DNA from: an uncultured Clostridia bacterium
Lineage (GTDB): Bacteria; Bacillota; Clostridia; Oscillospirales; Acutalibacteraceae
DNA: 58,540 nt
Assembly (NCBI GenBank): GCA_945863885.1
Contig: CAMAZY010000017.1
Location: 1 to 58,540, forward strand
Direction: 5' to 3'
Shown here: piece by piece, positions 29,602 through 48,745 of the stretch
Numbering within the stretch: the first letter of the stretch is position 1
Layout of the letters: every line of letters begins with the position of its first letter
Notes under the pieces: generated by a model
Told to the model about the DNA's origin: nothing
Databases searched by the model: none
What the model saw: only the letters and a program-made list of their open reading frames with translations
Program-made: the position numbers and the translations under genes

Positions 29602-31785
29602 ATGAAAACATCAATCAAGAGGTCATTGCGACGGCTGTTTTTGTGCTTGCTGATTGTCGCTGCGGTCGGATCTTTCGGCGTGTTTGTCGGTGCCGAACCG
29701 CTTCTTACGGCAAGTGCAGAAGATTTTGTCAGCGGCGGCTTTACCTACACGGTGGCGGAAAATGAAGCAGCGATTACCGGATATGACGATGCTTCTGTTG
29801 AGAATTTAATGATTCCGAAGGCCCTTGACGGGTATGCCGTTGCGGCGATCGGCGACAATGCTTTTGCTTCTTGTGCAGACATTACGAGTGTTTCCGTCCC
29901 GGCAAGTGTTACCGCTATCGGCGAAAATGCGTTCGGTGAAGCTGACAGTCTCGAACGGATTTATTATGCCGGTTCGGAACAGGAGTGGGGGCTTATTGCA
30001 ATCGCAGAGAATAACGAAGCGATCACTTCGGCTCAGATCGAGTATGATTCTGTCGGTGAGCACGTTCACTCTTACACGAAGACAGTCACCAAAGAGCCGA
30101 CCTGCGCCGAAAAGGGCATCACGACTTATACCTGTATTTACTGCGATGACAGCTATACGGAAGATATCCCGGAAACGGGAGAACACACCCTTGAATCTGT
30201 TGTTACCAAGGCGACAACCTCAAAGGACGGAAAGATTACGACTTCCTGTACGGTCTGCGGTAAAGTTGTTAAAACCGAAACGATTGCAAAGGTGACCTAT
30301 TTTAAGCTTTCGGCATCTTCCTATGTTTATGACGGCAAGACCAAAACGCCCACGGTGACAGTCAAAGACAGTACGGGTAAGACGCTCAAAAAGAACACCG
30401 ATTACACACTGAAAGCGCCGTCAAGCAGAACAGCGGTCGGCTCTTACACCGTTACCGTCACGCTGACCGGAAAGTACAGCGGCTCGAAATCGCTTGTTTT
30501 CACGATCGTTCCGAACGGTACAAGCCTTATGTCACTTACGCCGACTTTCGCCGGCTTTACGGCAAAATGGAAGAAACAGACGAGTCAGACAGCCGGCTAT
30601 CAGCTTCAGTATGCCTATACAAGCTCGTTCAGTTCCTATAAGACGCTGACAGTCAAGAGCACTTCGACAACATCTCTTGCGGTCAGTAAGCTTAAGGGCA
30701 GTACAAAATATTATGTAAGAGTCCGGACATACAGCGCCGTCGGCGGAAAGTACTATTATTCGGCGTGGTCTCCGGCTGCGGCAGTCAAAACAGATCCTCA
30801 ATACGGGATTAAAATGATTTCGTCTGCTTCTCTTTATGTCGGCGGCTCGGGAACGATTTCGACTGTAACAAGTCCCGCAAAAGTGACAGTCAAGTGGAAG
30901 AGCAGCGACACCTCCGTTGCGAAGGTTTCTACCACCGGAAAGGTTACCGCCGTCAAGAAGGGCACCGCAACCATAACGGCTTACTTTACATACGGCGGGG
31001 CTACTTATAAGGCTGCATGCAAGCTGACGGTCAAGACACCGGCAATCAAGCTTAGCAAAACCTCGCTGACCTTGACGGAAAAGAATACCTATCAGCTCAA
31101 AGCCGAGACGGCACCGACAGGTGTTACGGTCAAGTGGCAGAGCAGTAATACCTCTATCCTGACGGTGTCTTCCACAGGCAAAATCACAGCCCTTAAGAGC
31201 GGAAAAGCGACCGTTACCGCTTATTTCGTTTACGGTTCGGTAACATATAGGGCCTATTGTAACGTGACCGTTGTGACAAAAAGAGCGGCAAGCTTTGACA
31301 AAGTAAAAAGCTTCATCGAGAAAAACGGATATACGAACCAGAACGGAAACAAGGTTATCGTATATGCATTGGAAGATGAGGAATACATATATAATTACGG
31401 AATTGCTTACGACAAGAAGAGCGGCAAACTTGACTTCGTTTATTTGTGCGAAAGAAAATACAGCACCGGCTTTGAAGTAACTATTTCAATGGAAGTCGGA
31501 AAGACGTCAACCAGCACGACTGCTACCGATACGATTATATATTATGAGTACAACGAGCCCCTCGGTGCCGCAGTCGCAACATCGAGTATTCAGATGAGTA
31601 AGTTCACGTCGTCAACAAAGCTGAATTACTCATTCAGCAGCGATTCGACCTCCAACATGAAGAATCAAAACGTAAAAGACCTTTTGAATGCAGAGCTTCA
31701 GTATGCATTCGAAATCTGGAATGCGATGCTGAAATCTTCGGTCGGCGTTACGATGCGTGATCTCGGCTTTACCGCTTACAAATAA
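29602..31785 (+). CDS. Secreted BspA/Big2/FN3 modular protein
   Basis: A 727-residue protein from ATG 29602 behind AAGGAGGAAG. Signal peptide ~1-45. BspA-type leucine-rich repeat (~66-150, AIGDNAFASCADITSVSVPA); CxxC module (~153-230); SYVYDGK beta module (~233-303); FN3-like domain (~305-398); two Big2 domains (~400-558, KWKSSDTSVAKVSTTGKVTA); and a unique C-terminal domain (~560-727). The CxxC plus YDGK modules closely match those of the upstream giant protein. The last ~50 codons are duplicated at 47850. A surface or secreted binding role is likely; no enzyme motif is seen. Confidence 0.85.
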   Translation: MKTSIKRSLRRLFLCLLIVAAVGSFGVFVGAEPLLTASAEDFVSGGFTYTVAENEAAITGYDDASVENLMIPKALDGYAVAAIGDNAFASCADITSVSVPASVTAIGENAFGEADSLERIYYAGSEQEWGLIAIAENNEAITSAQIEYDSVGEHVHSYTKTVTKEPTCAEKGITTYTCIYCDDSYTEDIPETGEHTLESVVTKATTSKDGKITTSCTVCGKVVKTETIAKVTYFKLSASSYVYDGKTKTPTVTVKDSTGKTLKKNTDYTLKAPSSRTAVGSYTVTVTLTGKYSGSKSLVFTIVPNGTSLMSLTPTFAGFTAKWKKQTSQTAGYQLQYAYTSSFSSYKTLTVKSTSTTSLAVSKLKGSTKYYVRVRTYSAVGGKYYYSAWSPAAAVKTDPQYGIKMISSASLYVGGSGTISTVTSPAKVTVKWKSSDTSVAKVSTTGKVTAVKKGTATITAYFTYGGATYKAACKLTVKTPAIKLSKTSLTLTEKNTYQLKAETAPTGVTVKWQSSNTSILTVSSTGKITALKSGKATVTAYFVYGSVTYRAYCNVTVVTKRAASFDKVKSFIEKNGYTNQNGNKVIVYALEDEEYIYNYGIAYDKKSGKLDFVYLCERKYSTGFEVTISMEVGKTSTSTTATDTIIYYEYNEPLGAAVATSSIQMSKFTSSTKLNYSFSSDSTSNMKNQNVKDLLNAELQYAFEIWNAMLKSSVGVTMRDLGFTAYK

Positions 31786-32350
31786 TCAAAAACAACAAAG
31801 AACCCGTCGGCTTCCTGTCGGCGGGTTGCTGTTTATACTTGGGCTAACGCTTCTTTTGCCTCTTGTATAGCCTTTTCTTTGGTGTCATAAATTCCGGACG
31901 GAACAACGTCGCTTGCCGGCGCCCAATAATATTTACCGAAATAGTCGTCAAAGTAAGATTTCATGACGGTATAGGTATAAGTGTTGCGCTTTTTTAAAAT
32001 CATGATATAGCATCTGTCGCTGATATCAATTGTTTCAATCGCATCGGGATCAATGGATTCCGGTGCTCGGGTTGTAAACGGCGGGTTATGATGCGGCTTG
32101 CTCAAAGGGGTATGCTTCGTGGTCAATACATCACGGATTGTCATATCTTTTAGTCCGAAAGACCGGAACTTGTGTTTCCACGTTTGAGCCTGTCCGCAGT
32201 TTTTCAGTATGATACTGCCGTTTTCATATTCATACATACCTGCCCGGTTCTTATAATCGTCCTCAATCTGTACTGTGCCGATGTAGTGAAGTCTGCATGA
32301 GGGCAGCAGTTCCGCATCCGAAAACCATGCAACGGTGTACAGGGGAGAGG
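31633..32350. repeat. 718-bp direct repeat, left copy
   Basis: Contains the last ~50 codons of the secreted protein gene, the convergent terminator and the 3' ~170 codons of the convergent unknown gene. It aligns end to end with 47850-48567. About 320 bases in the middle (31856-32180) look identical by eye, while both flanks carry scattered substitutions. Confidence 0.9.
31801..31827. terminator. Convergent-gene terminator (left repeat copy)
   Basis: AACCCGTCGGC/GTCGGCGGGTT stem with G-U pairs and a five-base loop. A matching hairpin is in the right repeat copy at 48020-48043. Confidence 0.75.
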
Positions 32351-33113
32351 CAAGAATATGCTCGTCCGTATGATAATCGTTGTGATTTCTGAGCCGTGCT
32401 GTTTCTGTCAGCATATTCACACGATCGGCGCAGCGGCGAAGCGCAATTTCACGAAGCGCCGTCAGATTCTCTTCCGTAAAGAAATGGCCAACCGCTTGCC
32501 GGGCCTGAGCAGGCCGGTAAACATCGCCTGATTTCATTCGTTCAATCAGTTCCTGCGGCTCAATGTCCACCAGTTCAACCTGACTTGCGTTATCAAATAC
32601 GGAATCAGGGATCCGTTCATTGACCATGATGCCGGTTATGGAGGCCACCGTATCATTCAGGCTTTCAATATGCTGAACATTGACCGTCGTATATACATCG
32701 ATTCCGGCGTTGAGTAATTCCTCAATATCCTGAAACCGCTTGGTATGGCGGCAACACGGCGCATTGGTGTGCGCAAGCTCATCAACAAGAAGCAAAGATG
32801 GTTTTCTTCTGAGCGCAGCGTCAAGATTGAACTCCGTAAGCGTAATGCCGTTATGTTCCGTCGTCAGTGTCGGGAGACATTCCAATCCGTTCAGCAAAGC
32901 GGCAGTCTTCGGTCTGGCGTGCGGCTCGATGTAACCGGCCACGACATCAACACCGCGCCGCCTTGCCGCATGGGCGGCTTTCAGCATGGCATAGGTTTTT
33001 CCGACACCGGCGGCATATCCGAAGAATATTTTCAGATGTCCTCTTTTTTTGTTTTGTTCTTCCTTTTCGATTTCTTTCAGAAACTGTTCCGGACTTTGTC
33101 TTGCGTTGTCCAT
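31833..33113 (-). CDS. Chimera: KdpD N-terminal domain fused to an unknown protein's C-terminus
   Basis: A 426-residue frame. Residues 1-~253 are the KdpD sensor domain: FFGYAAGVGKTYAML Walker A, GYIEPHARP, LLVDELAHTN Walker B and VYTTVNVQHIESLND. In the family a Usp domain, four transmembrane helices and a histidine kinase should follow; here the frame switches at ~32353 into SPLYTVAWF, the tail of the unknown gene at 48050. The kinase and membrane parts are absent and no kdpE is seen. ATG 33113 replaces a longer start at 33203. The short KdpD-N form can exist alone in Firmicutes, so residual ligand sensing is possible, but phosphorelay is not. Confidence 0.8.
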   Translation of the reverse strand: MDNARQSPEQFLKEIEKEEQNKKRGHLKIFFGYAAGVGKTYAMLKAAHAARRRGVDVVAGYIEPHARPKTAALLNGLECLPTLTTEHNGITLTEFNLDAALRRKPSLLLVDELAHTNAPCCRHTKRFQDIEELLNAGIDVYTTVNVQHIESLNDTVASITGIMVNERIPDSVFDNASQVELVDIEPQELIERMKSGDVYRPAQARQAVGHFFTEENLTALREIALRRCADRVNMLTETARLRNHNDYHTDEHILASPLYTVAWFSDAELLPSCRLHYIGTVQIEDDYKNRAGMYEYENGSIILKNCGQAQTWKHKFRSFGLKDMTIRDVLTTKHTPLSKPHHNPPFTTRAPESIDPDAIETIDISDRCYIMILKKRNTYTYTVMKSYFDDYFGKYYWAPASDVVPSGIYDTKEKAIQEAKEALAQV

Positions 33114-33165
33114 ACAAACACCTCTGTGTTCTCTCCTATATATAAGCAAGAAAATATAAGAAAGC

Positions 33166-34077
33166 TTAAAAGAATTTTTTCTTTTTAAAGTATATAATTT
33201 CACCTATGGCAATGATAAGAGCGACCAGAATGACCGCCGGATATCCGAACCGCCACTTAAGCTCCGGCATATAGGCAAAGTTCATTCCGTACCAACCCGT
33301 AATCAGGGTCAGCGGGAGGAAAATGGTGGTGACGATCGTGAGGATCCCCATGATCTTATTCTGTCTTGCGTCCTGTTTTGACTGATACAGCTCACGAAGC
33401 TGCAGCATATTTTCACGAAGCAACTGTACATGATTCTGCAGCCGTCCGGCACGATGGGTATATTGCTCCCACTCCTGAGCGTCCTGTATAAAAGAAGAAC
33501 AGACATGAGATTGAAACAGCTCTCCGATATCCGTCAGCTGTTCATAGTAGGCGTTGAGCTCGGAAAGCTTTTGCCGGTATCCGGTGAGTAGGGGGAAGAA
33601 GTCCTTAGTATCACCGTTGAGCAAGCGTTCCTCCATTTTCTCCGCCGCCGTCTCGATGTGCGTCAGATACAGAGCGTCGTCCTCGATCATCTGTTCCATG
33701 AACTGCAAAAGAAGCTGCGCCGGACTGCTCACTTCCGAAAGCTGCCCAATCTGCTTTTCTGACCATCTTTTTACATCTCCTGCATCTTCAATAAAGACAA
33801 GAGATTGCCGTGTCAGGCAGAATGCGAAGGAAAGCTGTGGCGAACGCTGTTCGCTTTTCCGAGGCAGACGCAAGGTGCCGATGATATCGTCCTTGAACGC
33901 TTCAGCCTTGCAGTAACGAATCGAACCGAGACTGTGCAGCAGCTCTTTATAATACGGATACTGTTCTTTTTCCTCCCGGAACTGCCCGGCACTGATTACG
34001 GTAAAAAACGGCTCCTGAGAATTGTCATTTTCAATAGGACGCAGACTTCTGTCGAGTGAATCTAACTGATATTGCAT
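33166..34077 (-). CDS. corA: CorA-family magnesium transporter
   Basis: A ~303-residue protein: large N-terminal cytoplasmic domain, a long helical stalk and two C-terminal transmembrane helices. The signature GWYGMNFAYMPELKWRFGYP follows the first helix and forms the pore entrance (GMN selectivity motif). The lysine-rich tail KKKKFF is cytoplasmic. The start is ATG 34077, because AAAGGAGA lies eight bases upstream inside the longer frame. It is inserted between kdpC and kdpD, an unusual neighbour. Mg, Co or Ni transport cannot be told apart from sequence. Confidence 0.88.
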   Translation of the reverse strand: MQYQLDSLDRSLRPIENDNSQEPFFTVISAGQFREEKEQYPYYKELLHSLGSIRYCKAEAFKDDIIGTLRLPRKSEQRSPQLSFAFCLTRQSLVFIEDAGDVKRWSEKQIGQLSEVSSPAQLLLQFMEQMIEDDALYLTHIETAAEKMEERLLNGDTKDFFPLLTGYRQKLSELNAYYEQLTDIGELFQSHVCSSFIQDAQEWEQYTHRAGRLQNHVQLLRENMLQLRELYQSKQDARQNKIMGILTIVTTIFLPLTLITGWYGMNFAYMPELKWRFGYPAVILVALIIAIGEIIYFKKKKFF

Positions 34078-34223
34078 ACGAACATCTCCTTTGGACAATG
34101 AAACAATACTATTTTAATTATATCTTATCATTTGTCAAATCAACCTTAAAAGAAAAGATGACGCATAAAGATTTCATAAAGAAAATGGAAAGCGTACTGA
34201 TTTATCGCCTTCACATTTTCATA

Positions 34224-34829
34224 CTATTTCAGAATACCGTCCAGCATCAGATTAACCTTCAGTACATTGACGGTTTTTTCACCGAAAACGCCTAAAAATC
34301 TGCCGTCGGTGCATTTGTCAATAATGGTTCTGACCTCGTCCTGAGACATGTTGTTGGCTTTTGCGATTCTCGCAACCTGATATTCGGCGGCGGCCGGAGA
34401 AATATGCGGATCCAGTCCGCTGCCCGAGCAGGTTACAAGGTCAACGGGGATCGCCGTTTCGTCCATATCGGGGTTAGCTGCCCGAAGCTTTTCCACACGC
34501 TCTTTCACTAAAGCCTTGTATTCATCGCTTGCCGGAGAAAGGTTAGACGGTGCGGCATACATCAAAGTTTTTCCGTTTTTATCCTTGAAGGTGGAAACAT
34601 CAAGATTCATAATGCGTCCCCACATATGACCGTCGTCCGTGTATTGCTGACCGAGAAGCTCACAGCCGTACTTTTTTCCGTCAACTTCAATAATGCTTCC
34701 GTTTGCTTTATCAGGGAAGATAAGTTGTGCAAAACCGGTGACAACGCCGGTATAAAGGACACCGCAAAATAAGGTGAAAATCAGAAAGATGATTGCCGCT
34801 TTCGGTAAAATGTTTTTGATTGTTTTCAT
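34224..34829 (-). CDS. kdpC: Potassium-transporting ATPase KdpC subunit
   Basis: A 201-residue subunit with one N-terminal transmembrane helix (AAIIFLIFTLFCGVLYTGVV) and an extracellular domain. LVTCSGSGLDPHISPAAAEY and VARIAKANNMSQDEV are the diagnostic KdpC motifs. It stabilises the KdpFABC complex in the membrane. It lies 12 bases after kdpB in the same direction and has normal length, so this subunit looks intact even though kdpB is frameshifted. Confidence 0.95.
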   Translation of the reverse strand: MKTIKNILPKAAIIFLIFTLFCGVLYTGVVTGFAQLIFPDKANGSIIEVDGKKYGCELLGQQYTDDGHMWGRIMNLDVSTFKDKNGKTLMYAAPSNLSPASDEYKALVKERVEKLRAANPDMDETAIPVDLVTCSGSGLDPHISPAAAEYQVARIAKANNMSQDEVRTIIDKCTDGRFLGVFGEKTVNVLKVNLMLDGILK

Positions 34830-34841
34830 GATGAAGCCTCC

Positions 34842-36910
34842 TTATGCTAATCCGAACAGGACAAGCAGTAAATCAATCAGCTTGATGAAGATAAACGGCG
34901 CCGCAAGTCCGCCGAGACCGTAAATCAACAGGTTACCTGACAAAAGCTTTCCTGCCGGAACCTCACGGTATTTGACGCCTTTGAGTGCCAGCGGAATCAG
35001 CGCAATAATAATCAGCGCATTATAGATGATGGCAGACAGAACAGCACTTTGCGGGGAGTGAAGTCCCATAATGTTCAAAGCGGACAGCCCCGGATAAAGT
35101 CCCATAAACAAGGCGGGAATAATGGCAAAGTACTTGGCGACATCGTTGGCAATCGAGAAAGTAGTCAGACTTCCTCTTGTCATCAGAAGCTGTTTGCCGA
35201 TACGAACGATATCAATCAGCTTAGTTGGCGAGGAATCAAGGTCAACCATGTTGCCGGCTTCCTTAGCCGCCTGCGTGCCGGTGTTCATTGCGACCGCCAC
35301 ATCAGCCTGCGCAAGAGCAGGAGCGTCGTTTGTGCCGTCGCCCGTCATGGCGACAAGGTGACCCTTGCTCTGAAAATCACGGATCATCGTAAGCTTACCC
35401 TCGGGTGTTGCTTCGGCCAGAAAATCGTCCACACCGGCTTCTGCTGCAATGGCGGCGGCGGTCATCGGGTTATCGCCTGTAATCATGATGGTTTTAATAC
35501 CCATTTTACGAAGATCCGCAAATTTTTCCTTTACTCCCTGCTTGATAATGTCTTTCAGATGAATAACACCTAAAATCTTATGGTTTTTCCTGACAACAAG
35601 CGGTGTTCCGCCTTTGTTTGCAATTTCTTTGACAATGCGGTCGCATTCTTCCGGATAAACACCGCCGTTTTTGGTGACATACTGCTGCATGGTGTCGGCG
35701 GCACCTTTGCGGATTTCGTTGCCGTCATAATCAACGCCGCTCATACGGGTTTTCGCCGTAAAGGGGATAAAGGTCATGTTTTTATCGGAACGCTCCCGTT
35801 CCCGCAGCTCGTATTTTTCCTTGGCGAGAACGACGACACTTCTGCCCTCCGGCGTTTCGTCGGCCAGAGACGACAGCTGCGCCGCATCGGCTAATTCCTG
35901 CTCGTTCACACCGTCTATCGGAATAAATGCGGAAGCCTTGCGGTTGCCGAGCGTAATGGTGCCGGTTTTGTCAAGCATCAGAATATCCACATCGCCTGCG
36001 GCTTCAATCGCTCTGCCGCTCATGGCAAGCACATTAGCCTGATTGAGTCGGCTCATACCGGCAATACCGATAGCGGAAAGCAACGCACCGATGGTGGTAG
36101 GGGCAAGGCAGACAAGCAACGCTACCAAGGTAGTAACGGAGGTGGGATTATCGATTCCCGCCTGCTTTGCTGAGAAAATCGAATAGGTGTAAAGCGATAC
36201 CGTGACGAGGATAAAGATAATGGAAAGCGCGACAAGAAAAATCTGCAATGCGATTTCATTCGGCGTCTTTTCCGGGAGGCGCCCTCAACCATAGCGATCA
36301 TTTTATCAAGGAAGCTTTCGCCGGCTTCGCTTGTGATTCTGACAACAATCCAGTCGGAAAGCACGGTTGTGCCGCCTGTTACGGCGCTTCTGTCGCCGCC
36401 TGCTTCACGGATAACGGGTGCGGATTCGCCTGTAATAGCGCTTTCGTCAACGGATGCGGCGCCCTCGATTACTTCGCCGTCGCCCGGAATTTGTTCGACG
36501 GCTTTTACAATGACAATGTCGCCTTTTTTCAGTGTTGCCGAAGAAACGGGAGTGACCTGATCTTTTTTATCGGCGGACGGGATTTTGTGTGCCTCCACAT
36601 CCTTTTTGGAAGCTCTCAAGGCGTCCGCCTGCGCCTTACCTCTGCCCTCGGCAATCGCTTCGGCAAAGTTAGCGAAAATACAGGTAAACCACAGAATCAC
36701 GGCGATTGCCAGTGTATAGCCGCTTGAAGCGTCTTTCATTCCGAACAGGGAAACGATCCACAGCCCGGTCGTCAGAATCGCCGAAACATAGACCAGAAGC
36801 ATGACAGGATTTTGCACCTGTGTTTTGGGGTTTAGTTTGATAAATGAATCTTTTATGGCTCTGCCGAGCATCTTTTTATCGGCAAAAGCACTTTTTGTTT
36901 TTGATGCCAT
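34842..36910 (-). pseudogene. kdpB: Potassium-transporting ATPase KdpB, frameshifted
   Basis: Two overlapping frames together make a full P-type ATPase of ~690 residues. The first (from ATG 36910) runs to [12 protein letters not shown]; the second resumes with [19 protein letters not shown] and carries [12 protein letters not shown] (phosphorylated Asp), the [11 protein letters not shown] and [14 protein letters not shown] motifs. The break is in a run of four A (36268-36271 on the + strand); a fifth would restore RKKTPNE. As given, KdpB is split before its catalytic domain. A sequencing or assembly error in the homopolymer is a real alternative, since everything else is well conserved. Confidence 0.88.
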
Positions 36911-36922: not shown

Positions 36923-38734
36923 TTAAATGACATTACTGAAAAATTCAGCGAGCGGTCCGAGTGCCAGCGCCGGGAAGAAGCTGAGCGCACCGATGAGAAT
37001 AACGATGAAAATCAGCAGGAAAACGAACATTGCGTTGGTTGTCGAAAGTGTACCTGCGCTTGTTGCAATCTTCTTTTTGCCGGCAAGACTGCCTGCTATT
37101 GCCAGCGTTCCGATAATCGGAAGGAAACGGACAAACAGCATGACAAGACCGAGGGAAATATTCAAAAATACGGTGTTTGCATTAAATCCTGCAAAGGCAG
37201 AGCCGTTATTGCCGCCGGCGGAGGAATAAGTGTACAGCATTTCGGAAAAGCCGTGCGCGCCGCCGTTGTTGAGACTGTCCGCCACGCTCGGAACAATTGC
37301 CGCAAGTCCGCTTCCTATAAGAATGGCAATCGGCGTAGCAAGGCAAACAAGCACAGACCATTTCATCTCGTAAGGCTCAATCTTTTTGCCTAAGAATTCC
37401 GGCGTTCTGCCGACCATTAGACCGGCGATAAAGACCGTCAGAATGGCAAAAGCAAGCATACCGTAAAGACCGCAGCCGACGCCGCCGAAAATAACCTCAC
37501 CGAGCTGCATCAGAAGCATCGTCACCATACCGCCGAGCGGCGTGTAGCTGTCGTGCATTGAGTTGACAGAGCCGTTGGAAGCCGCCGTTGTAAATGCCGC
37601 CCAAGTTGAGGATGTCGCAATACCGAATCGGGTTTCCTTGCCCTCCATGTTGCCTCCTGCCTGATCGGTCATGGAGATGTTGACGCCGTCCTGCGCAAGC
37701 TGCGGTGTTGCAAGCTGTTCGCTGACAGCAATCGAGCCGAGAGCCAACGCAAGGCATATAAACATCGCCATAAAGATGGCAACGCCCTGTTTTTTATTCT
37801 TTACTGCCTTACCAAAGGTGAAGCACAGCGCCGCAGGAATCAGCAAAATTGAAAGCATTTCAATCAGATTGGTAAAAGCGTTCGGGTTTTCAAGCGGGTG
37901 AGCGGAGTTGACGCCCATATAACCGCCGCCGTTTGTACCGGTTTGCTTAATGGCGACCTGACTTGCCGCAGGACCCATCGGTACAAACTGTTCGGTAACA
38001 ATTTCGGCATCTTCTACTACTTTACCGTCTACCGTCACCGTGCCCGCTTCGAGGTCAATTTCGGCATTTTCAAGTATTTCACCGTCTGCGCTGACGGCAA
38101 TCGGTTCAACAAGCGATACCGTATCGGCGCCTTTCAGGTTCTGAATTACACCGCCGCCGACAAGGCAAAGCGCAATGACAAGGTTAAGCGGTATTAAAAT
38201 ATGAATGACGATTCTCGTCATATCCACCCAGAAGCTGCCTAAGCCGTCTGTTTTCACTTTGATAAAGCCTCGTATCAGTGCGAACAGCACAGCGATTCCG
38301 GTCGCAGCGGAAACAAAGTTCTGCACGGTCAGACCGAGCGCCTGCGTGAGATAGCTGAGCGTCGATTCGCCGCTGTACGCCTGCCAGTTTGTGTTGGTTA
38401 CAAAGCTTGAAGCCGTGTTAAAGGACAAATCCCATTTCACACCCGAAAGTCCCTGCGGATTGCCGGGAAGAACGCCCTGCAAAAGCTGAAGCAAAAACAG
38501 AAAAACAAGACCGATGCCCGAAAAAATCAGAACGGAAACGGCGTACTTCTTCCAGGTCATTTGCTCGTCCTTGTCAACGCGCATCACTTTGTATACTGCG
38601 TTTTCACAAGGCGTCAGAATTTTGGAAAGAAAGGTTTTTTCGCCGTCCATGACTTTTTTGATGTACGCTCCGAGCGGAATCGCCAGAACGATCAGAACGG
38701 CAAGATACAATATGTACTGAATCACCGCACTCAT
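36923..38734 (-). CDS. kdpA: Potassium-transporting ATPase KdpA subunit
   Basis: A 603-residue channel-like subunit with about ten transmembrane helices. Selectivity loops visible: SFVTNTNWQAYSGE (~residue 110) and GGYMGVNSAHPLENP (~270). This is the high-affinity potassium entry path. Its ATGA start overlaps the kdpF stop, and kdpB follows 12 bases after it. The segment ~200-250 carries an acidic insert (VEPIAVSADGEILENAEI) typical of clostridial KdpA. Confidence 0.95.
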   Translation of the reverse strand: MSAVIQYILYLAVLIVLAIPLGAYIKKVMDGEKTFLSKILTPCENAVYKVMRVDKDEQMTWKKYAVSVLIFSGIGLVFLFLLQLLQGVLPGNPQGLSGVKWDLSFNTASSFVTNTNWQAYSGESTLSYLTQALGLTVQNFVSAATGIAVLFALIRGFIKVKTDGLGSFWVDMTRIVIHILIPLNLVIALCLVGGGVIQNLKGADTVSLVEPIAVSADGEILENAEIDLEAGTVTVDGKVVEDAEIVTEQFVPMGPAASQVAIKQTGTNGGGYMGVNSAHPLENPNAFTNLIEMLSILLIPAALCFTFGKAVKNKKQGVAIFMAMFICLALALGSIAVSEQLATPQLAQDGVNISMTDQAGGNMEGKETRFGIATSSTWAAFTTAASNGSVNSMHDSYTPLGGMVTMLLMQLGEVIFGGVGCGLYGMLAFAILTVFIAGLMVGRTPEFLGKKIEPYEMKWSVLVCLATPIAILIGSGLAAIVPSVADSLNNGGAHGFSEMLYTYSSAGGNNGSAFAGFNANTVFLNISLGLVMLFVRFLPIIGTLAIAGSLAGKKKIATSAGTLSTTNAMFVFLLIFIVILIGALSFFPALALGPLAEFFSNVI

Positions 38735-38823
38735 TTTTGTTCATCCCCTTTCATCAGGATATACACATAGTACCCAAGCAGTGCCGCAGCACAAAGACCA
38801 ATAATTCCGATTATGATATTCAT
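38731..38823 (-). CDS. kdpF: KdpF-like small membrane peptide
   Basis: A 30-residue peptide, mostly one transmembrane helix (IIIGIIGLCAAALLGYYVYI), then MKGDEQK. It starts at ATG 38823 behind TGCAAGGAGGTAAG and ends in an ATGA overlap with kdpA. Size, position and composition fit KdpF, which stabilises the Kdp complex. It was too short for a routine open-reading-frame scan. No c-di-AMP riboswitch is recognisable in the 91 bases upstream. Confidence 0.8.
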   Translation of the reverse strand: MNIIIGIIGLCAAALLGYYVYILMKGDEQK

Positions 38824-38914
38824 AGTCTTACCTCCTTGCAAAATATTGTAGCAGCATTAGAATTAAATCGGGATTAGCAGAATTTACAGCGTATTAAAAC
38901 GGTGTTAAAGATCC

Positions 38915-39109
38915 TTACAACCACCCGAAAATCAAAGCAATCGGAACTGCGGTGATCATCGTAAAGAAAAACACAGCGGCAAGAATAAAAATCGGCATAC
39001 CGATAAAAACCGCAAAAAAGGACAGAACCGGATGTTTGAATGAAAAATGATCCACATGTGCTTCTATACGCTTGTCAAGCGCATGTATTCTTTTCAACAG
39101 GACTGCCAT
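38915..39109 (-). CDS. Small membrane protein of unknown function
   Basis: A 64-residue protein: a charged N-terminal helix (LLKRIHALDKRIEAHVDHFS) then one or two hydrophobic segments (LSFFAVFIGMPIFILAAVFF). ATG 39109 follows AAGGAGGGA. It lies just upstream of kdpF in the same direction and may be co-transcribed with kdp; no family is recognised. Confidence 0.65.
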   Translation of the reverse strand: MAVLLKRIHALDKRIEAHVDHFSFKHPVLSFFAVFIGMPIFILAAVFFFTMITAVPIALIFGWL

Positions 39110-40456: not shown

Positions 40457-41908
40457 TTAAACCTGAATATCATATTTTTCTATATTCAGGTTCGCTTTTC
40501 CGTCGCACCTGAATACGATTTCATCCGCTTCAAGCGGCGTATAAAAGGTTGCGCTGAAGACCTGATACCCGTCATTGACAAACAGCTCTGCCGAGTATTT
40601 GTCGAGTATCAGACGAAGCTTCAAGGTGCTTTCCGGATTGTCAAGCTTCATCTTTCTTTGGCTGATGACGTCTCTTCTCATGCCGGAATACGTCCTGTTA
40701 AATTCAATGCTCTGCTCCTCTTGGTTGTAAGTAAAGCAGGAGGTATATTCCGCATTGTGTGCAATATGGATGGTAAGCTTTTCGAAATCGCCCGACAGCA
40801 CTTCTGCCGACAAATCAAGCACTCTGCCCTTGATCCCCGGGAGGCTGACTTCGCCCGAAATTTCCGCATTTTTATAGATTACGGGATTCACACGGTGATT
40901 TTCAAGCTCACGGACAGGCTGCTGATAAAGATGACCGTCTACGAGGCTCAGCTCTCTCGGAATGGTCATCATCCCGTTCCATCTTTGTTCTGCGGGCTTG
41001 ATATTGATATCCCACGACTGCATCCAGGCGATCAGAATCCGTCTGCCGTCATTTGTCAAAAGTGTCTGCGGCGCATAATAGTCCGGACCGTAATCGAGCA
41101 TAACACCTTCGTTATAATCAAATTGACAGCTCGTTTTGTTAAACTGCCCAAGGAAGTATAATGCATGGTTTCCGTTATAAAACTTGTTTTCAACCGCCCG
41201 CATATCCTGCGGAGATACAATCAGTACATGCTGATTGCCAAGCTCAAAAAAGTCCGGGCATTCCCACATCGTGCCGTACGTTCCGTCGTTTTCCGCAAGT
41301 ACCGTCACATACTGCCAGTCTTTTAAATCCGTCGAACGGAACAAAACGACCTGTCCTAAACCGTCGCTCTTTCTGTTTCCTGCAACAAGAAAATAGGAGC
41401 CGTTATCGAACCATATCTTCGGGTCACGGAAATCCTCCCGGCTGAAGCCCTCGGGCAGCTGATTGCCATCAATAACGGGATTGCCGGCAAATTTCCGATA
41501 GGTTTTGCCGTCGCCGAATGCCAGACATTGATTCTGATAGGAGCACTTTTTACCGTTTTCCTCTCTTTCGGTAACACCGGTGTAAACCAAAGCGTGTTCC
41601 TCGTCCGTTTCAAGCGCACTTCCCGAAAAGCAGCCGTTTTCATCATAGCTTTCGTCCGGAGCCAGCGCATCCGGCAGGGTTTCCCACTTGATAAAGTCGC
41701 CGGAAGTACAATGTCCCCAGTGCATCGGACCCCACGCATCGCTGTAAGGATGGTGCTGATAAAACAGATGATATTGATTCCGATATTCCGAAAAACCGTT
41801 GGGGTCGTTTATCCAGCCGACCGGAGCCGTAACATGAAAATCGGGTCTTTGCTCTTTCGGCACCTTGTTTTTTTCAATATAGCTGTTTGCCGTTTCTAAT
41901 TTATTCAT
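40457..41908 (-). CDS. GH32 sucrose/fructan hydrolase
   Basis: A ~483-residue five-bladed propeller plus beta-sandwich enzyme. The nucleophile is in GWINDPNGF (Asp35), the transition-state stabiliser in DFRDPKIWF, the acid/base in MWECPDFFEL. No signal peptide, so it acts in the cytoplasm on sucrose, sucrose-6-phosphate or short fructans. Because the operon has an ABC importer and a fructokinase rather than a PTS, unphosphorylated substrate is likely. ATG 41908 is chosen; an in-frame GTG lies nine bases upstream. Confidence 0.92.
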   Translation of the reverse strand: MNKLETANSYIEKNKVPKEQRPDFHVTAPVGWINDPNGFSEYRNQYHLFYQHHPYSDAWGPMHWGHCTSGDFIKWETLPDALAPDESYDENGCFSGSALETDEEHALVYTGVTEREENGKKCSYQNQCLAFGDGKTYRKFAGNPVIDGNQLPEGFSREDFRDPKIWFDNGSYFLVAGNRKSDGLGQVVLFRSTDLKDWQYVTVLAENDGTYGTMWECPDFFELGNQHVLIVSPQDMRAVENKFYNGNHALYFLGQFNKTSCQFDYNEGVMLDYGPDYYAPQTLLTNDGRRILIAWMQSWDINIKPAEQRWNGMMTIPRELSLVDGHLYQQPVRELENHRVNPVIYKNAEISGEVSLPGIKGRVLDLSAEVLSGDFEKLTIHIAHNAEYTSCFTYNQEEQSIEFNRTYSGMRRDVISQRKMKLDNPESTLKLRLILDKYSAELFVNDGYQVFSATFYTPLEADEIVFRCDGKANLNIEKYDIQV

Positions 41909-41937
41909 ATCAACCACAACCTTTTGTCCAACTGTAA

Positions 41938-43029
41938 TTATATTGCCTGTTCTGTTTCCCTGTCGAAGAAGTGCATTTTGTGCGGCATGAACACAAACTC
42001 AACCCGATCTCCTATCTGACACACCTCATACTTGGATACTCTTGCTACCGTCAGAGCACCGCCGAACTGAAAATACAGATTGTTTTCATTTCCCATGATT
42101 TCCGTATTCTCAATAACAGCCTGCTGACTGTTCTGTTTATAAACATCAATGTTCTGACTGTCAAACTTGATATCCTCGCCCCGGATTCCGAGAATCAACT
42201 CTCCTTTATGTTCCGACAGCTTTTCCGCCGTTGCTTTCGGCAAGGTCATTTTGCTTCCGTCCGCAAAGGTCATTTCTTCGCCGTTTACGGTGACATCATA
42301 AAAGTTCATTTGTGGAGAGCCGATGAAGCCTGCCACAAATTTATTCTGCGGATGCTCATACAGATCCATCGGCTTGCTTATTTGCTGAATGACACCGTCC
42401 TTCATAATGACAATGCGATCCGCCATGGTCATGGCTTCCACCTGATCGTGCGTAACATAAATCGTCGTGCTTCCGAGACTGCGATGAAGCTTACTGATTT
42501 CGTTTCTCATGCTGACACGTAGCTTTGCGTCAAGATTCGACAACGGCTCGTCCATCAGAAACACCTTCTGATCCTTGACAATCGCTCTGCCTAAGGCAAC
42601 ACGCTGTCTTTGTCCGCCCGAAAGGTTCTTGGGCTTTCTGTACCGGTACTCTTCAAGCCCTAAAATATCAATCACCCAATCAACCTTTTTCTTAATAACG
42701 TCTTTCGGCACCTTCATGTTTTTCAGTCCGTAGGATATATTCTTTTCGACGGTCATGTGCGGGTAAAGCGCATAGTTCTGGAACACCATGGATATGCCCC
42801 TGTCTCTGGGCGCAACCTCATTCATTTTTACGCCGTCGATATACAGCTCGCCTTCGGTGATTTCTTCAAAGCCCGCTATCATGCGAAGCGTCGTTGATTT
42901 TCCGCAGCCGGACGGTCCTACAAAAGCGATAAATTCTTTTTCGTTGATTTCAAGATTAAAATCTGTCACGGCATTTTTATCAGAATTGGCATATTTTTTT
43001 CCGATGTGTTTTAATTCTATAAAGCTCAT
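41938..43029 (-). CDS. Sugar ABC transporter ATPase (MsmK/UgpC type)
   Basis: A 363-residue ATPase: Walker A GPSGCGKST, signature LSGGQRQRVALGRA, Walker B VFLMDEPLSNLDAK, switch TIYVTHDQVEAM, then a C-terminal OB-fold regulatory domain (~240-360). It energises the two permeases upstream. Many clostridia use one shared MsmK for several sugar importers; here it is inside the operon. Confidence 0.93.
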   Translation of the reverse strand: MSFIELKHIGKKYANSDKNAVTDFNLEINEKEFIAFVGPSGCGKSTTLRMIAGFEEITEGELYIDGVKMNEVAPRDRGISMVFQNYALYPHMTVEKNISYGLKNMKVPKDVIKKKVDWVIDILGLEEYRYRKPKNLSGGQRQRVALGRAIVKDQKVFLMDEPLSNLDAKLRVSMRNEISKLHRSLGSTTIYVTHDQVEAMTMADRIVIMKDGVIQQISKPMDLYEHPQNKFVAGFIGSPQMNFYDVTVNGEEMTFADGSKMTLPKATAEKLSEHKGELILGIRGEDIKFDSQNIDVYKQNSQQAVIENTEIMGNENNLYFQFGGALTVARVSKYEVCQIGDRVEFVFMPHKMHFFDRETEQAI

Positions 43030-43052
43030 AATGATTCCCTTTCTTTTTAAAC

Positions 43053-43904
43053 TCAGCCCTCTTTTGAGCCTGTTGAAACAACGCCCTCTACAATCTGCTT
43101 GGAGAAGAAGGAGTAAATAATGATAACCGGGATCGTGATCAGCGTAATGACGGCAAGCGTCTGACCCATGGTTGTGTTTTCGTTTGAGGTGATGGCGTTC
43201 AGTCCGATCTGCGCTGTGAGCAGGTCACTCGACGTAAACACAAGCGACGGCCAGAGGTAGTCGTTCCACACATTCAGGAAGGTGAACACGCTGACAGTAG
43301 CCACAACGCTCTTTGACATGGGAAGAACCATGGTAAAGAAGTATTTGACGGGACTGCAGTAGTCAAGCTGCGCCGCTTCATAAATATCATCGGGTAAGCT
43401 GATAAACACCTGTCGGAACAAAAAGATGTTGAACGGATTGACGATCATCGGAAGAATATAGCCGATAACGGTGTTCAACAGTCCGAGCTTCGCCACAAAC
43501 AAAAAGTGGATCGTGATAATCGTTTCCATCGGAACAATCATCAGAAGCATAATAATCAGAAGCCAGCGTTCACGGAACGGGAATTTGATTTTGGCTAGCG
43601 CATAGCCGGCAAGACCGTTTACGATGACGCCAAGCACAATCAGCACGGCCGCATAAAACAGGGTGTTGAGCATATAGCGCAGAAAGCTTGTGTTGGTAAG
43701 GATCGAAATATAGTTATCCAGAAAGCTGCCGGTTAAAGCAGGGGGGATAAAAGCCGCCGCCGAATTCATATCGGCTGTAATCTGTGCGTCAGTCTTAAAG
43801 GAATTGGCAAGCATCCAGATGACGGGGAAGAGGAAAAATAACGACAACACAATCAAAACGGCAACGAGTATCCAATTACTTATCCTTTTTCTTTTTGTCA
43901 GCAT
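43053..43904 (-). CDS. Sugar ABC transporter permease (MalG type)
   Basis: A ~283-residue inner-membrane permease with six predicted helices and the EAA loop YEAAQLDYCSPVKYFFTMVLP that contacts the ATPase. ATG 43904 follows AAAGGGGGAATAAG; a longer frame to 43931 is less likely. It overlaps the MalF-type gene by 29 bases. Confidence 0.92.
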   Translation of the reverse strand: MLTKRKRISNWILVAVLIVLSLFFLFPVIWMLANSFKTDAQITADMNSAAAFIPPALTGSFLDNYISILTNTSFLRYMLNTLFYAAVLIVLGVIVNGLAGYALAKIKFPFRERWLLIIMLLMIVPMETIITIHFLFVAKLGLLNTVIGYILPMIVNPFNIFLFRQVFISLPDDIYEAAQLDYCSPVKYFFTMVLPMSKSVVATVSVFTFLNVWNDYLWPSLVFTSSDLLTAQIGLNAITSNENTTMGQTLAVITLITIPVIIIYSFFSKQIVEGVVSTGSKEG

Positions 43905-44799
43905 GCTTATTCCCCCTTTCCTTTGTGACAACCGTCTGAATGACCGTCAGTATCATGACAAAGAACGCAAATACAATGGCCATTGTGGAAGCAAGACCGA
44001 TTTCCCAGTTCACCGTACCTGTTTCGTATATGTCGTAAACCATGGTGTAGGTTGAGTGGGACGGTCCGCCGCCCGTCATAATCATCGGCTGAACGAGCAT
44101 ACGGAACGCGCCGATTGTAATTGTGATAAATACAAAGATGCAAAGAGGCTTCAGTTCCGGCAAGGTAATGTCCTTAAACTTTTTCCAGCCGCTTGCGTGA
44201 TCCATCTCAGCCGCTTCATAAAGTGCAGGATTGATTGCCTGCAAGCCACCGAGGAAAATAATCATCTGATAGCCCATGCCCTGCCAGGAGCTCATAATGG
44301 CAATGGACGGGAGAGCCTGCGATGCGCTGTTGATAAACGGCTGAGGAGCAATTCCGAAATTGCCGAGAATGGAGTTTAAAATGCCCTCGGGGCTGAAAAT
44401 CTGAATCCACAAGGTCGAAACAACGGCAAGCGACATGACGACGGGTACAAAAAACGCTACCTTAAAGTACTTTTTGCAGTACGTCACCTTGTTGATTAAA
44501 AGCGCCAGACCCAAAGCGCCCAAGCCCTGAAGCGGTACGATAATCAGCACAAACCGAACCGTGTTTCCGAATGCCTGTCTGAAGTCTTCGTCACGAAAAA
44601 TCTGAAAATAGTTTTCAAGCCCGACAAAGTGGGTAATTTCGGGATTGAGTGCAAAAAAGTCCGTGAAGCTGAATATCAGCGTCAGAATCATCGGAATGAA
44701 CAGAAATACCGTCAGCAGTACAAGCGCAGGACCGAAAAACGCCATTCCAAGAAGCGATTCCGACTTCTTTTTCTTTTTAACAGTTAGCTCTTTATTCAT
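43876..44799 (-). CDS. Sugar ABC transporter permease (MalF type)
   Basis: A 307-residue permease with about six helices and the EAA loop LYEAAEMDHASGWKKFKDI. The lysine-rich ends (TVKKKKKSE and ADKKKKDK) are cytoplasmic. It overlaps the solute-binding protein gene by eight bases, so translation is coupled. Confidence 0.92.
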   Translation of the reverse strand: MNKELTVKKKKKSESLLGMAFFGPALVLLTVFLFIPMILTLIFSFTDFFALNPEITHFVGLENYFQIFRDEDFRQAFGNTVRFVLIIVPLQGLGALGLALLINKVTYCKKYFKVAFFVPVVMSLAVVSTLWIQIFSPEGILNSILGNFGIAPQPFINSASQALPSIAIMSSWQGMGYQMIIFLGGLQAINPALYEAAEMDHASGWKKFKDITLPELKPLCIFVFITITIGAFRMLVQPMIMTGGGPSHSTYTMVYDIYETGTVNWEIGLASTMAIVFAFFVMILTVIQTVVTKERGNKHADKKKKDK

Positions 44800-46123
44800 T
44801 GTCGTATGTGTAACGCTTCAGCTTTGCGTTAATCCTTTCTACAGATTTATTCAGCTCCGACTGAATATCAAGTCCTGAAAGAACACAGTTCTCAAGAGTT
44901 TGCTGAAAAGAGGTGCTGACCTGCGGATAAACAGGTGTTTTCGGTCTCGGATGACCGTATTTGCTAAGCTGATAGTAAAGTGCCTTGAAATTTTCGTCCG
45001 TCTGAAAAATATCGTTTTCCTCGAACGCCTTATAGGTCGACGGCAGACTTTTTGTTTTTTGGCAAAGCAGGGAGCCGCTCTCCGCACCGCTCATCCACTT
45101 GACAAGCTCGGTTGCCCCTTCAATATTTTCTGTTTTTGAGGTTGCTGCAAATGCCCATGAGCCGGTCGGTGTATAGCGTTCGCCGTTCCAGTCATCGCCG
45201 ACGATGTAGGGTGCAACACCGAGGTCAATATCCGGATAGCTCGTGTAAATCGTATTGACCTCCCATGCACCGTCAAACTTAAAGGCGGCTCTTCCGCTTT
45301 CGAACAGCTTATCGACCGGCACCGCCGACATATAGCCCTTGTCAAGAAGCGTTCTGAAGTATTCGACGGTTTCTTTATTTTTTTCTGAGTTAAACACGCC
45401 GTCAGCAACAAGCCCCGTTTCGTCAATCATATCGCCGCCGTTTGACCAGAAGAACGGCGCATAATAATAGATCGTTGCCTCGCCTACGGGGAAGGTCATA
45501 TCAAGCGCATATCCGCTTTTCTTTTCAACAACGGGCTTGACTTTTTCAAGAACCTCCAAAAACTCGGTGAAGGTCCAGGGATCGTCAGCCTCGGGAACGG
45601 TCACACCCGCACTTTTCAGAATATCCTTGTTATAATAGAGTCCGACGCTTGATTCCATCGCGCCGAGAGCATAAAGCTTCCCGTTATATGTACCCTGATC
45701 AAGAATAGACTCAAGATATTCACTGCGTTCGGATTCGGTAAGCGGTGCAAGCGGCTGAATGATATTGTTCACCGCATATGCCGCAATGTTCGGACCGTCT
45801 ACGGTAATGACATCAGGCAAACCGCCCGACATCACCGAAGCGTTGATTTTGTCGGAATAGCCGCCTCCGCTGTCGTTTCTCGGAATAAACTCAATATCGG
45901 CAAAATATTTTCCGTTGTATGCCTCATTGAATTTGTGAACCGATTCCTTGTAGCACCGTCCCTCGTCGGTATCCTCAATAGTGTGGACCCAGATTGACAG
46001 ATACTCTTCGCCGTCGTCATAGCCTTCAATGTCACCGGGAGACGGGACGGAGGTCTGACATCCTGTTAAGAAACAGGCGGCAGACAGCATCAAGGCTATA
46101 ACGGCTGATAGTTTTCTTCTCAT
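44792..46123 (-). CDS. Sugar ABC transporter solute-binding lipoprotein
   Basis: A ~443-residue extracellular protein with a lipoprotein signal ending in CFLTGCQTS (lipid-modified Cys ~21). The family 1 solute-binding fold shows in PDVITVDGPNIAAYAVN and in KFDGAWEVNTIY. ATG 46123 follows AAAGGAGC. First gene of the seven-gene operon, directly under two LacI-type operators. The ligand is presumably sucrose or a fructo-oligosaccharide, judged from the enzymes downstream. Confidence 0.92.
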   Translation of the reverse strand: MRRKLSAVIALMLSAACFLTGCQTSVPSPGDIEGYDDGEEYLSIWVHTIEDTDEGRCYKESVHKFNEAYNGKYFADIEFIPRNDSGGGYSDKINASVMSGGLPDVITVDGPNIAAYAVNNIIQPLAPLTESERSEYLESILDQGTYNGKLYALGAMESSVGLYYNKDILKSAGVTVPEADDPWTFTEFLEVLEKVKPVVEKKSGYALDMTFPVGEATIYYYAPFFWSNGGDMIDETGLVADGVFNSEKNKETVEYFRTLLDKGYMSAVPVDKLFESGRAAFKFDGAWEVNTIYTSYPDIDLGVAPYIVGDDWNGERYTPTGSWAFAATSKTENIEGATELVKWMSGAESGSLLCQKTKSLPSTYKAFEENDIFQTDENFKALYYQLSKYGHPRPKTPVYPQVSTSFQQTLENCVLSGLDIQSELNKSVERINAKLKRYTYDNE

Positions 46124-46169
46124 CAAAAAGCTCCTTTCAAGTAAAATTTCTGCTTGCGTAACCGATTAA

Positions 46170-46264: not shown

Positions 46265-46271
46265 TTTTTAC

Positions 46272-46300: not shown

Positions 46301-46328
46301 GAATCCACACAGAATGGGGGCATTAAAG

Positions 46329-47354
46329 TTGAAACAGAAAAAGGTCACCTTTGACGACATCGCAAAATATACAGGCTTTTCAAAAACTACCATTTCACGG
46401 TATTTTAACAATCCCGACTCGCTCACTCTTGAAAATCAGGAAAAAATAGCGGCGGCACTGTCTGCGCTCAACTACCATGAAAACAAGCTGGCTAAGGTTC
46501 TTGCAAACGGCAAAAGCGAGTTTGTGGGGATTATTGTCCCGAACCTTTATATGCACTACTACTCCGAAATGCTCAACCGGATTCTTTCAAGCTATGAGCA
46601 ATACGGCTATAAATTCCTTGTCTTTGTCAGCACCGGTCGGAAAGAAGAAGAGAGAAAATATTTAAAGGAGCTTCTGGCGTATAACATTGAGGGAATGATC
46701 ATACTCAGTCATACCATACCCTCAAAGGAGCTGGCATCTTATAACATACCGATAGTAACGATTGAGCGTGAGGATCAATATGTATCAAGCGTGAATACCG
46801 ATAACTACATGGGTGCGGTTCAGGCAACAAGCCTGCTGATCAAAAACAAATGCGATATCCTTATCCATATTAACTCCGAGTTTCCGTCCGACATTCCGGC
46901 ATACGGGAGAATAAAGGGCTTTCTTGACATCTGCGAAAAAGAAAATATCCGGCACGAGTTGATTTTAACGGATCCTGGCAACACCTACAAGGAAAACTAT
47001 GACTGCATTCTTTCGCTTCTTCAGGATATCAAAAAGAAGTATCCGAACATGAAAAAAGGACTTTTTATGGCGAACGATACCCACGCAAATGTTCTGCTGA
47101 ACATCATCGTCAGAGAGTACGGAACTCTGCCTGACGAATTCCGGATTGTGGGCTTTGACAACTCGCCTATTGCAAGCGAGGCCATCATACCGATCAGCAC
47201 AGTCGGACAGCAGATTGAAAAAATAGCCGCCGAAGCGGTGGAGTTGCTTGTAGAACAAATGAACGAGAGAAAAAAAAGAAAGCCCTCGCCTCAAAAGGGG
47301 ATTACCCATAAAAAAGTGACGCCGATACTGATCCGCCGGGACACGACGGACTGA
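46329..47354 (+). CDS. LacI-family transcriptional regulator
   Basis: A ~341-residue repressor. Its N-terminal helix-turn-helix is VTFDDIAKYTGFSKTTISRY followed by a hinge helix, then a periplasmic-binding-like effector domain (FVGIIVPNLYMHYYSEML; FRIVGFDNSP). TTG 46329 is preferred: GGGGG lies eight bases upstream. An ATG at 46314 is possible but has no ribosome site. It is divergent from the ABC/GH32 operon with two operators between them, so it very likely represses that operon and is relieved by the sugar. Confidence 0.92.
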   Translation: MKQKKVTFDDIAKYTGFSKTTISRYFNNPDSLTLENQEKIAAALSALNYHENKLAKVLANGKSEFVGIIVPNLYMHYYSEMLNRILSSYEQYGYKFLVFVSTGRKEEERKYLKELLAYNIEGMIILSHTIPSKELASYNIPIVTIEREDQYVSSVNTDNYMGAVQATSLLIKNKCDILIHINSEFPSDIPAYGRIKGFLDICEKENIRHELILTDPGNTYKENYDCILSLLQDIKKKYPNMKKGLFMANDTHANVLLNIIVREYGTLPDEFRIVGFDNSPIASEAIIPISTVGQQIEKIAAEAVELLVEQMNERKKRKPSPQKGITHKKVTPILIRRDTTD

Positions 47355-47429
47355 GGCCGGCAAAGGGGATTGTCGCACGTAACCCCCAAAACAAACCCTC
47401 AACTACCCAAGAAGACCAAACCGGTCTAA

Positions 47430-47603
47430 GGAACCTCTGAATAAATCACAGCATAGGCTTTGATGCACAGCTACCTTGCATATTTTCCGCCGGAACAGGA
47501 CAAAAACTGCTTGAAGTTCGACAGGATTCCTGCGCAGCTTTTGCATTTTTCTGACGAAAAAATTGACGGCGTAATCTGTACATCAGATTGAATCAGAGCT
47601 TCC
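47430..47603 (+). repeat. MITE copy A (174 bp)
   Basis: Terminal inverted repeats GGAACCTCTGAATAAATC and (on the other strand) GGAAGCTCTGATTCAATC. The internal sequence matches copies B and C. It encodes no protein. Flanks are CTAA on the left and TTAG on the right, not identical. Confidence 0.88.
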
Positions 47604-47849
47604 TTAGATTTATTTTTTTACCGTTTTATCAACGTGTTTTATATACGAATCCGTGTAGAATCTTTTCTTCAAAGCAAAGCACCTCACAAAATTAAACAAG
47701 CATATTGAACACAATTTCCTTTAATTTGTTAAACCTTACAAAATCCTTACGCGGTTCATTTATATGATAAACAATAAGCCGTAAGCGTAAAATCGTCGAC
47801 CTGGAATATGCGATACATTTTACGTAAAAGCATATTTGTATAATACTTG
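47604..47849. other. AT-rich stretch, nothing recognised
   Basis: No gene, tRNA or clear promoter. It ends at the right 718-bp repeat. If that repeat arose by integration, this stretch would have been next to the repeat in the incoming DNA. Confidence 0.5.
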
Positions 47850-48000
47850 TTCAGCAGCGATTCGACCTCCAACATGAAGAATCAAAATGTAAAAGACCTT
47901 TTGAATTCGGAGCTTCAGTATGCATTCGAAATCTCGAATGCGGTGCTGAAATCTTCGGTCGGTGTTACCAAGCGTGACCTTGGCTTTACTTCGTACAAAT
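47850..48000 (+). pseudogene. 3' fragment of the secreted BspA/Big2 protein gene
   Basis: Fifty codons (SSDSTSNMKNQNVKDLL..., LGFTSYK) match the end of the gene at 29602. No start, signal or upstream domain is present, and the stop codon is lost (TAA changed to TAT), so the frame runs on. Dead fragment within the right repeat. Confidence 0.88.
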
Positions 48001-48019
48001 ATTCAGAAATAACGAAAAG

Positions 48020-48043
48020 ACCCGTCGGCTTTTGTCGGCGGGT
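48020..48043. terminator. Convergent terminator (right repeat copy)
   Basis: ACCCGTCGGC/GTCGGCGGGT stem with a short loop, counterpart of 31801-31827. Confidence 0.7.
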
Positions 48044-48049
48044 TGCTGT

Positions 48050-48745
48050 TTATATTCGGGCTAACGCTTCTTTTGCCTCTTGTATAGCCTTTTCTTTGGT
48101 GTCATAAATTCCGGACGGAACAACGTCGCTTGCCGGCGCCCAATAATATTTACCGAAATAGTCGTCAAAGTAAGATTTCATGACGGTATAGGTATAAGTG
48201 TTGCGCTTTTTTAAAATCATGATATAGCATCTGTCGCTGATATCAATTGTTTCAATCGCATCGGGATCAATGGATTCCGGTGCTCGGGTTGTAAACGGCG
48301 GGTTATGATGCGGCTTGCTCAAAGGGGTATGCTTCGTGGTCAATACATCACGGATTGTCATATCTTTTAGTCCGAAAGACCGGAACTTATGTTTCCACGT
48401 TTGCGCCTGACCGCAGTTTTTCAGAATGATACTGCCGTTTTCATATTCATACATACCCGCCCGGTTCTTATAATCGCCCTCAATCTGTACTGCGCCGATG
48501 TAGTGAAGCCTATAAGAGGGCAGCAGCTGCACATCCGAAAACCATGCAACGGTGTACAGGGGAGAGGAGAGAACATCTTCGATTGTTACCGTCTTTGCAG
48601 AGCCGACGAGTTGCTCGGACAGCGCAATCAGATAACAGCCGGCTTGCTTACATAAAAAAACAAGCCCGAATGTCTTGCCGAGAGATTTATAACGATAAAC
48701 TCCGCCGGCTTTATACTCTTTTTTGTTTTTGAAAATCGCACTCAT
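48050..48745 (-). CDS. Unknown protein, intact version of the KdpD-fused tail
   Basis: A 231-residue protein with no signal peptide. N-terminal ~60 residues (YKAGGVYRYKSLGKTFGLVF) look like a small beta-barrel; the C-terminal ~170 are almost identical to the tail fused to KdpD at 31833. The segment YYWAPASDVVPSGIYDTKEK and after suggests a KOW-like or substrate-binding fold, but no family is recognised. ATG 48745 follows AAGGAGC. It may form an operon with the two small genes upstream (49391, 49854). An immunity-type or stress role is only speculation. Confidence 0.75.
   Translation of the reverse strand: MSAIFKNKKEYKAGGVYRYKSLGKTFGLVFLCKQAGCYLIALSEQLVGSAKTVTIEDVLSSPLYTVAWFSDVQLLPSYRLHYIGAVQIEGDYKNRAGMYEYENGSIILKNCGQAQTWKHKFRSFGLKDMTIRDVLTTKHTPLSKPHHNPPFTTRAPESIDPDAIETIDISDRCYIMILKKRNTYTYTVMKSYFDDYFGKYYWAPASDVVPSGIYDTKEKAIQEAKEALARI

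Follow-up and report, generated by a model that had tools for sequence, protein, structure and literature searches.

A kdp–sucrose island between diverged direct repeats built from two ordinary protein genes in an uncultured Clostridia bacterium

The stretch of DNA analysed here (the window) comprises 58,540 nucleotides of contig CAMAZY010000017.1 from an uncultured Clostridia bacterium. Its central part holds a kdp segment and an apparently complete sucrose operon between two direct repeats, each made of pieces of two convergent protein-coding genes, termed S and U. The features are listed below (+, forward strand; -, reverse strand;., no strand assigned).

29551..31785, +, S, whole copy: secreted-type protein of 744 aa with BspA-type LRR, Big_2 and fn3 domains (ORF, Pfam)
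31627..32350,., left repeat copy: S 3' end and U 3' part
31833..33203, -, chimeric ORF of 456 aa: KdpD sensor domain and C-terminal part of U, in frame (ORF, Pfam, junction alignment)
31841..32171,., 331-bp core, identical to 48058-48388
33166..34098, -, CorA-like transporter
34224..34829, -, kdpC
34842..36910, -, kdpB, two ORFs owing to a one-base frameshift near 36,270
36923..38734, -, kdpA, 603 aa
39465..40442, -, PfkB-family kinase, probable fructokinase (best NCBIfam match fructokinase, below its cut-off)
40457..41917, -, GH32 hydrolase, sucrose-6-phosphate hydrolase subfamily (above cut-off)
41938..46126, -, sugar-type ABC transporter: UgpC-like ATPase, two permeases and a solute-binding protein
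46314..47354, +, LacI-family regulator
47427..47611,., copy of an interspersed element of ~180 bp with inverted-repeat ends
47844..48567,., right repeat copy: S 3' fragment (stop lost) and part of U
48050..48745, -, U, whole copy: 231-aa protein without family assignment (ORF, Pfam, NCBIfam, PHROGs)

Self-BLAST of the window returned a single long direct repeat, pairing 31627-32350 with 47844-48567 at 94.6% identity over 725 columns and a copy spacing of 16,217 bp. The colinear 718-bp repeats of the original prediction were confirmed, the aligned block extending six bases further at one end. The alignment contains 35 substitutions (23 transitions and 12 transversions) and four mutually compensating gap columns; the equal length of the copies is accidental, as small indels between the two stop codons offset each other. 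Aligned base by base, the repeat has sharp ends, with identity dropping at both sides: in 25-base bins, 22 of 25 positions match in the first bin inside the left end vs 6 of 25 just outside, and at the right end identity falls from 25 to 11 to 6 going outward. The predicted identical centre with differing flanks was likewise found, as a longest identical run of 331 bp (31841-32171, equivalent to 48058-48388), outside which the remaining ~390 repeat positions differ at about 9%. A run of this length was reached in none of 20,000 random placements of the 35 differences, a permutation that gives all sites equal weight. DNA searches of the whole draft genome (67 contigs) yielded no third copy.

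The two genes are distributed over the repeats in complementary order. On the left, S is whole (its last ~150 bases forming the start of the repeat) and the 3' part of U is joined in frame to KdpD within the 456-aa ORF; on the right, S survives as a fragment that lacks its stop, next to a whole U. Each gene is therefore represented by one uninterrupted and one truncated copy with sharp ends, in a Campbell-type arrangement, as had been predicted. The further claim that this pattern reflects a single crossover held in part: the geometry and the identical core fit, but they are not diagnostic, because any left pair with a truncated U and right pair with a truncated S shows the same, and other routes lead to it.

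Close relatives of either gene were scarce. U received no family from Pfam, NCBIfam or PHROGs at the thresholds used, with two sub-threshold Pfam matches, and is probably a two-part protein, since its relatives match either the N-terminal or the C-terminal part only. No close copy of U was found in any other of 59 genomes, the two that matched being this genome and G010 (34% identity), nor in any other of 394 genomes, where the eight matched comprised this genome and seven partial matches at 30-64%. The S C-terminus matched in one of 39 genomes, this one, in a set that includes 24 of the 34 genus genomes. Neither an uninterrupted S–U locus in the relatives searched, a set with one strain of the species, nor a donor S–U locus in the genomes searched was found; an uninterrupted locus was also absent among the matches listed for DNA queries against the 34 genus genomes, which constitutes weak evidence with the best eight candidates per genome scored. 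In plasmids and phages, tblastn with U gave no match, and in viral contigs none of the ten pattern matches for U and four for the S C-terminus was confirmed.

The left junction falls inside kdpD, and the same point truncates U. The KdpD match in the window stops after 255 of 900 residues and covers the sensor domain only. With the frameshift in kdpB, a short kdpD without kinase and no kdpE at the locus, a functional KdpFABC system with KdpDE is not encoded here; kdpB lies in one frame at locus L071 and, over the part covered, in genome G026. Contig C242 of the sister species G020 aligns colinearly, at 90-93% identity, with 32345-35607 and 37901-39791 of the window. Homology to this contig ends at 32345, a few bases from the repeat end at 32350, where G020 runs on from corA–kdpC into an uninterrupted kdpD of 900 codons (900 aa), then kdpE and a WYL-domain gene. 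Among 16 of 80 named kdp loci that were examined, the KdpD match extends to residues 892-900 of the query (900 aa) in 13, and 12 of those 13 also carry a KdpE match; the other three lack KdpD in the stretch covered. Because KdpD is full-length in G020 and in these 13 of 16 loci, the kdpD of the window is probably a derived state, cut where the repeat begins.

The kdp genes lie beside a fructokinase gene in both the window and G020. In G020 the kdpE side carries no repeat copy, and the contig ends inside the fructokinase gene. Since G020 shares the linkage and its kdpE side is without a repeat copy, the kdp–fructokinase linkage probably predates the repeat bracket. In G026, kdp homology stops at 39203, with other genes beyond. 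kdpA itself was detected in 3 of the 34 genus genomes, including this one, and in 4 of all 59 genomes searched, and no second kdpA was found in this genome.

Other kdp observations concern different loci. In G020 (L038, G020:C242, 7420-7480), a deletion of ~2.3 kb makes kdpA run into kdpB, the join lying at a near-repeat some 9-10 bases long; it differs from the kdpB frameshift of the window, so that two separate kdp lesions occur in two draft genomes. A second full-length KdpD–KdpE pair is encoded on contig C4 of the present genome (L067, G000:C4), beside TrkA- and TrkH-type genes, its KdpD being 78% identical to that of G020; this pair may regulate Trk.

The locus presents a decaying kdp operon next to a sucrose operon that appears complete. 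The GH32 gene has matches in 8 of 39 genomes (24 of the 34 genus genomes and others, this one included), those elsewhere being only 31-43% identical. No close copy of the LacI gene was found in the other 33 genus genomes; besides itself, the search of all 34 returned two paralogues at 26-27% identity, one in this genome and one in G020.

In a scan of the main island ORFs, every one was assigned a role in metabolism, transport or regulation, and no recombinase, plasmid or phage gene was found among them. An integrative island with its own integrase is not supported on this ground, nor by the short att-type direct repeats, often at a tRNA, that mark such islands, the repeats here being ~724 bp long and mainly protein-coding. 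The only two tRNAs in the window (Rfam, ARAGORN), tRNA-Leu at 19561-19645 and tRNA-Ser at 56137-56229, do not border the island. Megablast against 72,556 plasmid records gave 40 matched records, none covering 80% of the island; among the 20 listed, 19 are short hits to the UgpC-type ATPase gene (10673-11324 of the query), leaving a single one, which falls in the kdp part. Against 50,697 phage records there was no match to the island. The captured catabolic circle of the original prediction, as such, was not borne out by either the gene content or the search for a plasmid or phage carrier. The locus was not found in the literature searched, which is no proof of its being unpublished.

The island sits in what looks like a variable stretch between the tRNA-Leu and tRNA-Ser genes; beyond about 24 kb, the matches listed for genus genomes include few long ones. 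Several repeats and remnants lie in this setting. The ~180-bp element recurs at 51105-51277 and 55260-55442, has a strong predicted fold (z -3.7) and is represented in this genome by at least 21 near-full copies among at least 34 matches (best 40 of 49 candidates scored), and also in G020, G023 and G027; it looks like a non-autonomous MITE-type repeat. Outside the island, 50102-50494 encodes what is left of the C-terminus of a large serine recombinase; a full-length enzyme of this type (529 aa), encoded on contig C30 of this genome, shares 80% DNA identity with the remnant. Further on, 55435-56163, which adjoins the tRNA-Ser gene, contains two stretches (423 bp, 100%; 248 bp, 98%) matching contig C30 at two sites some 14 kb from each other that adjoin phage tail and lysis-type genes, possibly as the remnant of a related prophage. 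At the other side, a 64-bp exact direct repeat (19624-19687 and 19823-19886) overlaps one end of the tRNA-Leu gene and could be an attachment-site duplication.

Divergence between the repeat copies is concentrated at synonymous sites. Outside the core, S shows dN 0.043 and dS 0.310 (8 synonymous and 5 non-synonymous changes) and the 5' part of U dN 0.037 and dS 0.282 (9 and 5, respectively), giving a dN/dS of about 0.14 and a dS of about 0.3 across both genes; these counts leave out the lost stop of the right S fragment and two non-synonymous differences at U's far end, and the codon samples are small (50 for S, 59 for U). The synonymous excess gave p = 0.0017 for S and 0.0007 for U in simple binomial tests, which ignore transition bias and therefore somewhat overstate significance. 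Because truncated fragments drifting after a simple duplication should show no such excess, the copies were probably still functional genes while they diverged, and were truncated and brought together later. Some decay after truncation is visible in the right S fragment, in the lost stop and several non-conservative changes. The same measure between this genome and its sister species gave a dS of 0.40 for kdpC, 0.39 for corA, 0.28 for the 5' part of kdpD and 0.42 for part of kdpB (all against G020) and 0.44 for kdpA (against G026); beside this range of 0.28-0.44 in five kdp-region comparisons, a fructokinase fragment (G020, 0.17) and an SGNH gene (G023, 0.81) fall outside. The divergence of the copies is probably at about the level of sister species of the genus and not that of a fresh duplication. 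The identical core would then represent a more recent exchange, either a crossover with its repair tract or a conversion.

The reading that we favour, at a probability of roughly 0.45, is that DNA of a related bacterium carrying the kdp–sucrose segment entered the resident S–U locus by a single RecA-type crossover. The incoming DNA would have had this segment joined to a piece of ~0.7 kb of its own S–U locus, and an earlier join of the donor U (U') to kdpD would have truncated kdpD and removed kdpE. One crossover between the donor piece and the resident locus, with its repair tract within the 331-bp core, would place U' next to the resident S at the left end and the donor S (S') next to the resident U at the right end, so that S' and U' would both be foreign, truncated parts. 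We infer the single crossover, the donor origin and the order of events from the arrangement and codon pattern described above. The patchy occurrence of kdpA in the genus and the lack of a close LacI copy in its other 33 genomes count in favour of this reading; that no donor S–U locus turned up in the genomes searched counts against it. By our count this is the least costly reading, with about three events; it requires the earlier joins of U' to kdpD and of S' to the lacI side, which the model leaves unexplained.

A circle is dispensable if two resident paralogous S–U pairs lay around the kdp–sucrose segment and were trimmed by two unrelated deletions, one removing the 5' part of U', kdpE and the 3' part of kdpD on the left and the other the 5' part of S' on the right, with the core homogenised by gene conversion. 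Such a history yields the same geometry by construction, suits the dS and the synonymous excess equally well through old paralogues, and invokes a kind of deletion seen in the same operon elsewhere, namely the loss of about 2.3 kb of kdpA/kdpB in G020; yet the draft genome yielded only two copies and nothing to suggest a larger family, and about four events are needed vs three. We regard it as the main competitor, though a doubtful one. An assembly artefact, in which the core served as a false join between two related loci or between a circle and an uninterrupted S–U locus, is distinctly unlikely. The genome is a draft in 67 contigs and 331 identical bases exceed common k-mer sizes, but the novel junctions at 32350/32351 and 47843/47844 both lie outside the core and are accordingly independent of how it is resolved. 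Assemblers also need pair or long-read support for a contig that crosses such a core twice, and contamination is listed as 0. The codon pattern also bears on a single insertion with a staggered break of ~720 bp or a template switch, after which the copies drifted while conversion kept the core alike: the sharp ends and single target gene pair suit it, but non-functional fragments should drift neutrally and the changes in S and U are mostly synonymous, and a dS of 0.3 would take a long time to accrue. Simple staggered duplication is disfavoured on these grounds and is the least probable of the explanations weighed here.

If the single crossover is correct, a second one in the core would free a circle of 16,217 bp and leave an uninterrupted S–U locus; RecA-mediated loss of the island through the 331 identical bases is plausible on this basis. 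In Bacillus subtilis, RecA strand exchange is reported to mediate interspecies exchange up to a divergence of ~15%, close to which the integrated lengths are 130-340 bp (PMC6382021). We think it very improbable that the island is a live, integrase-free exchange unit, in which homologous recombination lets a 16.2-kb circle with one S–U piece leave and re-enter S–U loci, across species of the genus as well, with sucrose use as cargo. Overall, the locus looks like a patchwork to which related bacteria contributed by recombination, and nothing in it points to a dedicated mobile element.

Individual parts of the locus resemble described systems to differing degrees. The 456-aa KdpD–U ORF recalls the KdpD-like non-kinase potassium sensor (NCBIfam NF038185), which has the KdpD sensor domain in a short protein devoid of a kinase, but it matches only positions 3-249 of 373, with a score of 272.6 vs a cut-off of 550, and it looks like a truncation product because its remainder is U sequence. 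Homology-facilitated illegitimate recombination, suggested for instance to underlie the displacement of effector/immunity genes in Vibrio cholerae (PMC5361080; PMC3240628), likewise leaves gene remnants, the incoming DNA having a homology anchor on one side and an illegitimate join at the other. A single anchor would however predict one-sided divergence, whereas here both outer repeat parts differ, and this one-sided route is disfavoured on that account.

The nearest described case found is the microcin H47 island of Escherichia coli (PMC3191183), which is likewise a small chromosomal island (a 13-kb system in a 16.8-kb segment) between extensive imperfect direct repeats that contain fully identical stretches, and which, according to that account, has no recombination genes of its own. 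Its excision and integration have been demonstrated, including under recA deficiency, and many strains carry hybrid empty sites (PMC3191183), whereas the island described here is known from sequence, has no known empty site and is flanked by pieces of ordinary protein genes. The codon pattern within its flanking repeat points to copies that were distinct genes before they came to lie together, and the same test, which separates recombination of diverged alleles from simple target duplication, is usable on other islands with long repeats. Islands bracketed by diverged gene remnants through recombination are a known kind, of which this locus is probably a further example.
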